DNA from: an uncultured Pelagibacteraceae bacterium | GTDB lineage: Bacteria; Pseudomonadota; Alphaproteobacteria; Pelagibacterales; Pelagibacteraceae | Length of the DNA: 64,000 bases | Assembly: GCA_902577525.1 (NCBI GenBank) | Contig: CACGZG010000006.1 | Location: forward strand, 1-64,000 | Direction: 5' to 3' | Position numbers and translations under genes: made by a program | The notes under the pieces: generated by a model | What the model was told of the DNA's origin: nothing | The model's input: only the letters and a program-made list of their open reading frames with translations | The model's database searches: none | In this document: in pieces, positions 894 to 4,583 of the stretch | Layout of the letters: every line of letters starts with the position of its first letter | How positions within the stretch are numbered: position 1 is the stretch's first letter

Positions 894-1439
894 TTATTTT
901 GCTAATTCTAATAAATTTTTTAATGCTCCACTTTTTTCCCACTTATTTACTAAAGAACTTAGATCAAGTGTAGTTTGTGTAACAAAATCTTTATAAATAG
1001 TTTTATATGATGGTCCTAATTTAATTCCACTGTAAGTGTTAAAAGATAAAATATCTTTTTTTGATAGACTTATAATTTTTCTTCTTACAGTTTCTCTAGG
1101 AAGCTGTAATACTTCTGCAATACTTGCAAAAGTTAATTTTCTTTTGTTCAAGTAATTTTTTTCTGTTATTTTTTCCATTTGTTCTTCTAAATCTGAAAAA
1201 GATTTTGTTCCTAACTTGTTAGTCTCATACAATGAATGACTTACTACAACTTGCAAAATTACAAATGATTCAAAATCTATATTTAATTTTTCTTTAACTC
1301 TCGTATACAATGAAAGTATGAACATTACCCAATGGTATAATCCTTTAGAAAAAACAGGTTCTTTGATGCCCCTTTCTTTCACTACTTCCTCTAAAGAAAC
1401 AATCTTATTAACACCCATTATAGTTTTTTCGTTACTCAT
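894..1439 (-). CDS. Putative winged-HTH transcriptional regulator
   Basis: HTH-like segment 'TFASIAEVLQLPRETVRRKIISLSKKDIL'; repeated dyad sites directly upstream. Confidence 0.6.
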   Translation of the reverse strand: MSNEKTIMGVNKIVSLEEVVKERGIKEPVFSKGLYHWVMFILSLYTRVKEKLNIDFESFVILQVVVSHSLYETNKLGTKSFSDLEEQMEKITEKNYLNKRKLTFASIAEVLQLPRETVRRKIISLSKKDILSFNTYSGIKLGPSYKTIYKDFVTQTTLDLSSLVNKWEKSGALKNLLELAK

Positions 1440-1455
1440 ACTAGTTTATATTCCC

Positions 1456-1490
1456 CCTAACATAGGTATATTACAACCTAAAATAGGTAT
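1456..1490. promoter_or_regulatory. Two directly repeated dyad elements (CCTAAcATAGGTAT / CCTAAaATAGGTAT), 21 bp apart
   Basis: Copies at 1456-1469 and 1477-1490 match 13/14; each contains CCTA-N3-TAGG; lies between divergent genes. Confidence 0.6.
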
Positions 1491-1532
1491 GATCAATCCT
1501 TTATCCTTATTTAATCAATATAAGATAGCTTA

Positions 1533-2996
1533 TTGAAATCATTTATGAAAATTTGGCTAAAAAATTATTTAATTAGAGTCTTAACAATAAATTTCTTTTC
1601 TTTATTCTATTTGATTCAAACACCAGTTTTTGACTCTGGTTTTTTTTCAATTCAATCAATTTTTTATTCTTTTAACATTTATTTATTATACCTCTTTATT
1701 TTTCTGGAAGCAAAATCATCTTTTTTTTCAATATACGGTTTGGACTTTAATTTTTATAAACTTGTAATTAATAATTTAGATAATCTCAACTTCAAATATA
1801 TATTATACATTGCGTTTCAAAATATTAATATTTTCTATTTTTTATTTTTCTCTTTAGGTTCCTTAGTTTTTATTGAAAAAATAAATTATAATTTTGTATT
1901 TAAAAGAGATTTATTTCAAACCAAAAAAAAATTTGTTTCTTCTATTCTTGTAATTGTTTTTATCTTAACTTGTTTCAATCCAAGCAATACTCATTTAACT
2001 TTAATAGAAAGATATAAACACTTAACTAACACATGGACTTCAAATGATTTGGTTCTGAATGAAGTAAAATATATTTCACAGTATATTAGAAATGATTTTT
2101 TTAGAAATGATAACTGGTTTAATACAGTCAAATATACTTATTTATATTTTGACAGTAATCCTTCAGGTGAAAGAAAGCTTTCACAATTTGATAAAAACAT
2201 AAAATTAAAAAGTTTTAGAGATTTTGGTAAAATAATAACAAAAAGTGAATATGATAATGTCTATGTAATCATAAATGAATCTTACCCTAATTTTAGAAAT
2301 AAAAAACTCAAAGAAAATTTATTAAAAAAAATAAAGATAGGTAATGATGATTTACTCGTTCAAAATTTTAAAAAAAAATGGAATAGAACTCTAACAACTC
2401 AAGGAGCTGAAATGGAATTTTTCTGCAACAAAGATGTTAATTTTGAAAAATATATTGTCAGTGAATTAAAAAATTTTATTGAAAAAAATAATTGTTGGAT
2501 CAATTTAATGAAAGATAAAAACTTAATTTATATACACAGCTATGAAGAGTCTTTTTTTAACAGATCAAGATATAAAAGTTTTTTTAACAAAACATTTTTC
2601 AAAAAAGAATTAAGTGATCTAAATTTTGAAATTTGTAATCAAAAGTACAGTGGAATATGCGATCATTTAATCTTAGATAATTTAGATAAAATTATTAAAG
2701 ATAAAAAAAATAATTTTATTATTTTTTTAACAGTGAATAATCATATTCCAGTAGAGCCAGTTTATAATATTTCATACATAGATTGTAATAAAAATTTTCC
2801 GTTAAATATCAGTGAACAATTTTGTAAAATTTATAATAACCAAATGTTATTTAATGAAAGTATTTCAAAATTTATTAATCGCATGAATAAAAATGACCTG
2901 TTAGTTTTTTTTTCAGATACACCACCAATGTTTGCGTCAAAGAGAAGAGTTCATTTCGAAGATTTAATTGATGTTTATTTTTTTACTAAAAAATAA
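1533..2996 (+). CDS. Membrane protein with alkaline-phosphatase/sulfatase-superfamily-like domain (phosphoethanolamine or LTA-synthase type, divergent)
   Basis: N-terminal TM helices; 'VIINESYPN', 'TTQGAEMEF', 'NNHIPVEP', 'FFSDTPPMF' resemble superfamily motifs. Confidence 0.5.
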   Translation: MKSFMKIWLKNYLIRVLTINFFSLFYLIQTPVFDSGFFSIQSIFYSFNIYLLYLFIFLEAKSSFFSIYGLDFNFYKLVINNLDNLNFKYILYIAFQNINIFYFLFFSLGSLVFIEKINYNFVFKRDLFQTKKKFVSSILVIVFILTCFNPSNTHLTLIERYKHLTNTWTSNDLVLNEVKYISQYIRNDFFRNDNWFNTVKYTYLYFDSNPSGERKLSQFDKNIKLKSFRDFGKIITKSEYDNVYVIINESYPNFRNKKLKENLLKKIKIGNDDLLVQNFKKKWNRTLTTQGAEMEFFCNKDVNFEKYIVSELKNFIEKNNCWINLMKDKNLIYIHSYEESFFNRSRYKSFFNKTFFKKELSDLNFEICNQKYSGICDHLILDNLDKIIKDKKNNFIIFLTVNNHIPVEPVYNISYIDCNKNFPLNISEQFCKIYNNQMLFNESISKFINRMNKNDLLVFFSDTPPMFASKRRVHFEDLIDVYFFTKK

Positions 2997-2998
2997 TT

Positions 2999-3301
2999 TT
3001 AATTTGGATCGCCTCTTATATCTGTATTAAGTTCTTGATATATGAGTACTGAGATGGTTTGTAAATTTTCAATTACTCTTTCGTAATCCCATTCTAAATA
3101 AACATCATTACAATTTAATTCTCTATAAACATAATACTTTGCATTTCCTAATGAGGGATCAATGTTTTCTGTGATAATATTTAACTGCTGGGTTTTCTTT
3201 TCTAGCGCAAAGTTATACTTACAGACATTTGAAGTGGCCCAATAAAGTATTGAACTAATTACTATGGCAAAAAAAATCATCACTTTAGGAACACCCATCA
3301 T
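2999..3301 (-). CDS. Hypothetical protein with one N-terminal TM/signal segment
   Basis: ORF abutting the GAF-SpoIIE gene; hydrophobic N-terminus. Confidence 0.55.
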   Translation of the reverse strand: MMGVPKVMIFFAIVISSILYWATSNVCKYNFALEKKTQQLNIITENIDPSLGNAKYYVYRELNCNDVYLEWDYERVIENLQTISVLIYQELNTDIRGDPN

Positions 3302-3302
3302 C

Positions 3303-4583
3303 TTATTTTCCGTCTATTACAACTATTGTTAAATCATCTTTTTGAATTTTTCCAGACTTAACAATATCCTCTATAATTACTTTTAATCTGTTATTGTTGG
3401 GTGTGGATTGATACTTTTTAATATAATTCTGAAAGCCTTCTGCTCCTAACATTTCTCCATTAGGATCTTTTATTTCTGTGACACCATCAGTAAAAATGTA
3501 CATAGAACTTTCTGAAAAAGATATTGAACTCTCCTTGTAGGTAATATTTGGCATAATACCTAATGGCGGTCCTGCTTCTGTATGATTAGAAAATTTTCCA
3601 TCTTTTGAATAAATCAATGGAGGTTCATGTCCAGCATTTGAAATTAATAATTCTTTTTTGTTACTATCATAAATTCCAACTAACATAGTAACAAACATAC
3701 CTCTTGCTGCAGTTTCACAAATTTCTTTATTTAATAAATTTAATAAGTCTGATGCTGAAAACATTGTTTTACTTAAGCATCGATAAAGACTTGAGGCTTT
3801 TGACATCAACAAAGATGACTTAATTCCTTTTCCAGATACATCTGCAACACCAAATCCATATTTACCATCTCCTAAATCAGAAAAGTTATAAAAATCTCCA
3901 GACACTACTTTTGCAGGGATATTTATACCTGCTATTGGAAAAGGGTCTTCTTTATTTTTGGATAATAAGGTTTTTTGTATCTCTCCGACAATTTCTATCT
4001 CCTTCTGCATTCTATTTTTATCAACAAGCTCTTTAGCCATCCGAGCATTTCTAATAGCAAGAGCCGCTGGTGTGGCTAATGTTTCTAAAAGTTTTCTATC
4101 ACTCTCTTCAAAAAGTTTATTGGTTGTTTTTTTATTTAAACAATGAAGGACCCCAATACATTCATTAGCAGCAATAAGAGGTGCACATAACACAGAGTAT
4201 GTAGTAAAATTTGTTTTGTTATCTAAATCAAAATAAAATTCTGCAATTTCTCTCACATCTTTTCTAACATCTCCAACTCGAATACATTTTTTTTGTAAAA
4301 CCGCTTTACCCATCACTCCTTGAGTCAAAGGAATCTCGTAATCCTCCAAGTATGCTTGGTGTTTTGATGCGATGCATTGGAAAACTTGTTTTTTTTCTTC
4401 AATTAAAAAAACATTAGCAGCTTGTGCATTTATTCTTTTAATAATAACATCAAGTGAATTTTGCAGTGTCTCACCTAAATCAAGAGAAGTGGCAAATTCT
4501 TGACTTAGTTTTGTGATAATTTGAAAATCTTCTATTCTTGAGTCTTCTTTAATTATTTCAGGTTTTTTTGATTTAAAAAACAT
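3303..4583 (-). CDS. GAF domain - SpoIIE/PP2C-type serine phosphatase (RsbU-like)
   Basis: GAF-like N-terminus; 'SGDFYNFSDLGDGKYGFGVADVSGKGIKSSLLMS', 'NAGHEPPL', 'FTDGVTE'. Confidence 0.88.
   Translation of the reverse strand: MFFKSKKPEIIKEDSRIEDFQIITKLSQEFATSLDLGETLQNSLDVIIKRINAQAANVFLIEEKKQVFQCIASKHQAYLEDYEIPLTQGVMGKAVLQKKCIRVGDVRKDVREIAEFYFDLDNKTNFTTYSVLCAPLIAANECIGVLHCLNKKTTNKLFEESDRKLLETLATPAALAIRNARMAKELVDKNRMQKEIEIVGEIQKTLLSKNKEDPFPIAGINIPAKVVSGDFYNFSDLGDGKYGFGVADVSGKGIKSSLLMSKASSLYRCLSKTMFSASDLLNLLNKEICETAARGMFVTMLVGIYDSNKKELLISNAGHEPPLIYSKDGKFSNHTEAGPPLGIMPNITYKESSISFSESSMYIFTDGVTEIKDPNGEMLGAEGFQNYIKKYQSTPNNNRLKVIIEDIVKSGKIQKDDLTIVVIDGK

Follow-up and report, generated by a model that had tools for sequence, protein, structure and literature searches.

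A phased dyad array at the predicted promoter of a Pelagibacteraceae winged-helix regulator points to autorepression

Introduction

MexR and MepR, autorepressors of the MarR family, act on palindromic operators that lie over their own promoters and are subject to autoregulation. TtgV, a winged helix-turn-helix (wHTH) repressor of the IclR type, is also an autoregulating repressor. In characterised systems, sites positioned in the promoter spacer, at the transcription start, or at the start codon usually block RNA polymerase.

The locus described here lies in the window, the 64-kb stretch of DNA that was analyzed as a whole, which belongs to a 1.14-Mb draft assembly of 30 contigs (G000). It carries a wHTH gene preceded by CCTA-N3-TAGG dyads, and comparative sequence analysis gives good support for an apparent circuit of an ordinary kind built around an undescribed regulator. 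No prior description of the regulator or of its operator array was found in the openly available literature searched.

Results

Dyad array and predicted promoter

Two 14-mers, CCTAACATAGGTAT (1456-1469) and CCTAAAATAGGTAT (1477-1490), differ at one base, start 21 bp apart, and each contain a CCTA-N3-TAGG dyad, confirming the positions and spacing given in the original prediction. They hold the only two exact CCTANNNTAGG dyads in the window; shuffled versions of the window contain a mean of 0.38 exact matches, with two reached in 2 of 100 shuffles. Under a first-order Markov null for the 105-bp gap, 100 of 200,000 trials produced a 13/14-identical pair of 14-mers whose members were both built on perfect 4-3-4 dyads, which gives a single-sequence p of ~5e-4 before allowing for the choice of site, and the pair at 1456-1490 is the sole one of its type within the window. 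Taken by itself, the window provides moderate evidence for the pair, and the conservation seen in aligned relatives settles its reality. The pair belongs to a longer array, in which CTCA-TAC-TAGT overlies the start codon and a fourth, degenerate dyad lies further upstream (dyads D and A, Table 1).

Alignment of the window with its 25 closest alignable orthologs (26 sequences) revealed zero insertions or deletions in the 57 bp before the regulator ATG. The alignment excludes the ortholog L077, which has a tandemly repeated N-terminus; upstream of its position 4001, the first codons of the regulator (ATGAGTGAAAAGAAAACTATA) form a tandem repeat in which dyad D is repeated as well. The spacing between dyads B and C is exactly 21 bp in 26/26 sequences, and that between C and D is likewise 21 bp. 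Information content follows the dyad layout, with half-site columns averaging ~1.9 bits and the N3 centre ~1.3 bits in dyad B, and half-sites at ~1.5 bits and the centre at ~0.5 bits on average (range 0.05-0.9) in dyad C. In dyad D, ACTA before the centre and TGAG after it are invariant or nearly so. Dyad A, where it is present in several relatives, lies 28 bp from dyad B, a distance that corresponds to no whole number of helical turns.

A T-A-N3-T motif at -34 is invariant in 26/26 sequences and lies 17 bp past the TTGAT at -57; invariance restricted to T, A, and the final T is the expectation for a sigma-70 -10 box. The resulting TTGATY-17-TANNNT arrangement sits where a sigma-70 promoter reading toward the regulator would be expected, and it is the predicted promoter of the gene. 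Dyad B lies inside its spacer in all 26 sequences, placing the array over the regulator's own predicted promoter. A possible Shine-Dalgarno run is found at a somewhat long distance from the ATG.

Table 1. Predicted and observed features of the regulator locus in window coordinates; offsets are relative to the regulator start codon
Feature	Coordinates	Strand	Remarks
Regulator gene, 181 aa, winged HTH, predicted autorepressor	894..1439	-	ORF; 35 named orthologs
Operator dyad D (candidate), CTCA-TAC-TAGT	1435..1445	.	21 bp beyond C, encloses start codon; -6 to +5
Possible Shine-Dalgarno run AGGGGG (GGGAG in relatives)	1453..1458	-	-19 to -14, largely conserved, abuts dyad C
Operator dyad C (candidate), CCTA-ACA-TAGG	1456..1466	.	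Over predicted transcription start (~1461); -27 to -17
Predicted -10 element TAATAT (TANNNT in 26/26)	1468..1473	-	17 bp from -35; invariant T, A, and final T only
Operator dyad B (candidate), CCTA-AAA-TAGG	1477..1487	.	Fills 17-bp promoter spacer; -48 to -38
Predicted -35 element TTGATC (TTGATY in relatives)	1491..1496	-	TTGAT invariant in 26/26, always 57 bp before ATG
Possible upstream dyad A	1505..1515	.	Degenerate in window; CCCA-N3-TGGG-like in L064-L069, L071, L076
Divergent sulfatase-like membrane gene	1545..2996	+	Probably outside conserved circuit; missing from most orthologous loci

Conservation and link to the regulator gene

A named-genome search yielded 35 single-domain orthologs, all from uncultured Pelagibacteraceae or Candidatus Pelagibacter assemblies; by its regulator gene, the relatives of G000 are Pelagibacteraceae. 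Dyads of the CCTA-N3-TAGG type are present directly upstream of the regulator in 35/35. Orthologs that kept the regulator and lost the repeats would have spoken against an operator, and because none exists among the 35, the operator idea passes this check. The sequences are related and hence are not independent witnesses.

The diverged orthologs L089-L095 mostly contain 3-4 dyads spaced 20-21 bp apart, in an array that begins just after a TTGAAT-16-TATAAT-type promoter in 6/7 and overlaps the ATG with its final dyad in L089, L090, and L094. Compared with the close orthologs, promoter and array are shifted relative to each other, but the dyads keep their helical phasing and still extend toward the start codon. 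Since the dyads in this subgroup fall downstream of the predicted -10 box, repression is favored.

A sequence-only model of the 63-bp promoter/operator stretch, scanned against 300 genomes of the genus, scored 56-70 bits in exactly nine, namely the nine with a close ortholog, and every match ends at the start codon of the regulator. The next-best matches (~21 bits) are the reverse strand of the same sites, with nothing else higher, and recurrent 38-nt partial matches (model positions 14-51) all fall inside the same long RNA-polymerase-like (rpoC) reading frame. At the level of sequence, these comparisons demonstrate that the array exists, that it is phased and conserved, and that it is strictly tied to the regulator gene.

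The genome-wide motif count that had been proposed as a route to a regulon returned no signal: single CCTA-N3-TAGG dyads number 12 in the window's genome vs 14 for a reversed-pattern control, with no enrichment. Pairs of dyads 21 bp apart number 4 vs 1 in the control; the one inspected resembles coding sequence, and these pairs were taken as chance. The 63-bp model scan found no second operator array in this genome, so that at this resolution a regulon is not apparent. The circuit looks local, and single-dyad targets may exist elsewhere.

Neighboring genes

The divergent layout of regulator and sulfatase-like gene around a short gap was described correctly at the outset, apart from the start of the latter, which is more likely the ATG at 1545 than the TTG at 1533 because its homologs start there. 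The C-terminal part of its product gives a weak profile match to the phosphoglycerol transferase GacH (E 0.005), and SDTPPMF occupies the place expected of a metal-binding GDH-like motif. This gene is the direct divergent neighbor in 4/35 loci and in one recombinant locus (L068). Elsewhere the dyads persist beside a divergent surface-protein gene (8/35) or pilus ATPase gene (2/35), and also in the ~19/35 loci that have a co-directional gene instead, usually one for a 100-aa membrane protein after a GAF-SpoIIE phosphatase. The conserved sites are thus not accompanied by a conserved divergent partner, and, as judged from these loci, the dyads track the regulator and not the divergent gene. The interval between the GAF-SpoIIE phosphatase and the regulator (1440-3302 in the window; L061-L095) appears as a replacement hot spot beside pilus-related genes; it is either empty or holds a gene of the sulfatase-like, surface-protein, or pilus ATPase type.

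Downstream of the regulator, a UMF1/ATG22-type transporter (Pfam ATG22) follows in 25 loci, typically within ~6-20 bp, with pirin in four loci and a methyltransferase in three. In the window, the methyltransferase follows after an intervening short ORF, and no UMF1 transporter was found elsewhere in this draft assembly.

Regulator protein and its relatives

The AlphaFold model of the regulator (mean pLDDT 77.7) places a winged HTH between helices, with helices at residues 29-52, 56-74, 104-111, and 115-127, wing strands at 131-134/138-141, and a long helix at 143-170. The recognition segment LPRETVRRK is invariant; its PRETVRRK core is invariant in the orthologs and near-identical in paralogs. 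No Pfam or NCBIfam family matched the window protein above cut-off, including the MarR and MarR_2 profiles, and MarR_2 also scores below cut-off in the two-domain paralogs. The best PDB fold matches are mostly MarR-type repressors at weak TM scores (~0.45-0.48), with no Foldseek E below 0.001. The predicted topology, an alpha-helical region flanking a winged HTH, fits the MarR layout at weak fold scores (TM ~0.45); MarR-like denotes a predicted mode of working, as an autorepressor, and not an established family membership. A phage origin was rejected, with no relatives among viral contigs and PHROGs matches that are weak and at HTH level only; PADLOC likewise gave only weak HTH-level matches.

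Unnamed two-domain paralogs (~320 aa) occur in 85 of 121 sampled genomes of the genus and in 17 of the 20 near-complete ones. Two or more CA-N3-TGGGT sites are present in 18 of their 21 distinct promoters, the first two being exactly 32 bp apart in 17 of those 18, at a density 95-fold over flanking DNA; some of the remaining promoters show variant sites. In L112-L131, the two-domain regulator gene with its upstream GTYCA-N3-TGGGT pairs often has, directly after it, a convergent gene for a transporter-like membrane protein. A third group, ~160-aa single-domain paralogs (L012, L046-L060), mostly lies directly after other genes and has no such array upstream.

Outside SAR11, a class-level search found remote homologs in 16/289 genomes. 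ACCCA-N3-TGGGT-like sites are present in 9/24 promoter zones of homologs from other Proteobacteria vs ~2 sites expected from the flanks (~4.7-fold), in a pattern that was noticed before it was counted, and their assignment as related operators is suggestive only. Palindromes such as ACCCATTTTGGGT and GCCCAAAATGGGC lie upstream of remote homologs (L176, L109, L100, L103), and perfect ACCCA-N3-TGGGT palindromes are found at one gene of Zavarzinia and one of a Burkholderiaceae MAG.

Discussion

The dyads are probably the operators of the adjacent regulator, a MarR-like winged-HTH autorepressor acting on its own gene and any co-transcribed downstream gene, with binding, cooperativity, and repression being what we infer from sequence comparison. 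The protein, a predicted dimer through its flanking helices, would bind ACCTA-N3-TAGGT. Because B, C, and D are 21 bp, or two helical turns, apart, bound dimers would share one side of the DNA; occupation of B in the promoter spacer, C at the predicted transcription start, and D at the start codon would exclude RNA polymerase. The expected outcome is negative autoregulation of the regulator gene and of anything co-transcribed downstream. The original prediction had this protein binding the dyads and controlling both flanking genes: its paired, phased, and probably autoregulatory operator holds (35/35 promoters), and its control over both genes is probably wrong, with the sulfatase-like gene adjacent in 4/35.

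A shared divergent control region, in which the regulator would also govern the sulfatase-like gene, is unlikely. The gap to the revised start is only ~105 bp, such that bound protein could affect both promoters in the window's genome, and four close relatives have the same divergent arrangement; however, ~30/35 loci have a different divergent gene or none and still retain dyads and regulator, the conserved promoter is oriented toward the regulator alone, plus-strand promoter-like matches in the gap are near shuffle level, and the dyad closest to the divergent gene, A, is a degenerate copy in the window. Dyad A also bears on positive autoregulation: in relatives it precedes the -35 box, and from such an activator-like position the regulator might stimulate its own promoter. 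Activation is nevertheless very unlikely, as B sits between the -35 and -10 elements, C spans the predicted transcription start, D covers the start codon, and the sites of the diverged subgroup fall downstream of the predicted -10 box in 6/7 loci. Little probability attaches to another DNA-binding protein, such as a global regulator, as the user of the dyads. The sites are tied to the regulator protein by association only, but no genome without the regulator carries the array, which is found at no other gene, the rest of the genome shows no enrichment of dyads, and the paralogs bear variant dyads at their own promoters.

Two further readings take the dyads as coding sequence or as RNA elements. 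An N-terminal extension of the regulator from a TTG 57 bp upstream would turn the dyads into a codon by-product (PILG, PTIG), consistent with a frame that is open in 22/26 sequences and with a length that is a multiple of three. It was rejected as hardly credible, given in-frame stops in the other four (window, L062, L063, and L086), the lack of a third-position excess of variation (entropies 0.51, 0.67, and 0.64 by codon position), the concentration of variation in the N3 centres, and the coexistence of 20- and 21-bp spacings in the diverged subgroup. RNA hairpins in the 5' leader could draw a 4-bp stem from each dyad, and the predicted folding of the L090 leader is better than that of its shuffles (z -2.2). 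They were rejected as well and retain only a negligible probability: the leaders of the window and L069 show no folding advantage over shuffled sequence (z 1.6 and -0.4), no Rfam match comes near the gathering score, and dyad B lies outside the predicted transcript because it is upstream of the -10 box.

Beyond the probable autorepression at this locus, the two-domain paralogs, with GTYCA-N3-TGGGT pairs of their own, suggest that these regulators form an undescribed family that shares an operator code. We lean modestly toward a proteobacterial family, its two-domain form widespread in Pelagibacter, that would control its own promoters through phased CYA-N3-TRG dyads, with ACCCA-N3-TGGGT as the ancestral site and both half-sites changed together to ACCTA-N3-TAGGT in the SAR11 single-domain branch.

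Comparative footprinting alone gives the candidate operator, the promoter geometry, and the likely target of one unnamed regulator, points to a corresponding operator in the widespread two-domain paralogs, and offers a small testable regulatory circuit in organisms with difficult genetics. It also flags an annotation hazard, as automatic gene calling could extend the regulator gene to the upstream TTG in most orthologs (1439-1496 on the minus strand of the window, where an in-frame stop is present), swallowing the operator.

Among known systems, MexR and MepR may resemble the regulator in topology, predicted here as a helical dimerisation region around the winged HTH; MarR-type proteins are also its best PDB fold matches, and its dyads, like their operators, are palindromic and overlie the predicted promoter. 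The regulator differs from them in having no Pfam MarR match above cut-off and weak fold scores, in an array of short 13-bp dyads repeated in 3-4 copies at two-turn spacing and extending to the start codon, and in its usual downstream partner, a UMF1/ATG22-type transporter. TtgV and the IclR-type repressors share local HTH similarity with it (2xrn, E 0.018), in an alignment limited to the HTH region, and the regulator lacks the length to accommodate an IclR ligand-binding domain. The two-domain PRETVRRK-type regulators of Pelagibacter share the homologous HTH segment and the dyad pairs at their own promoters and differ in carrying two wHTH units per chain, a GTYCA-N3-TGGGT operator, and a 32-bp, three-turn spacing.
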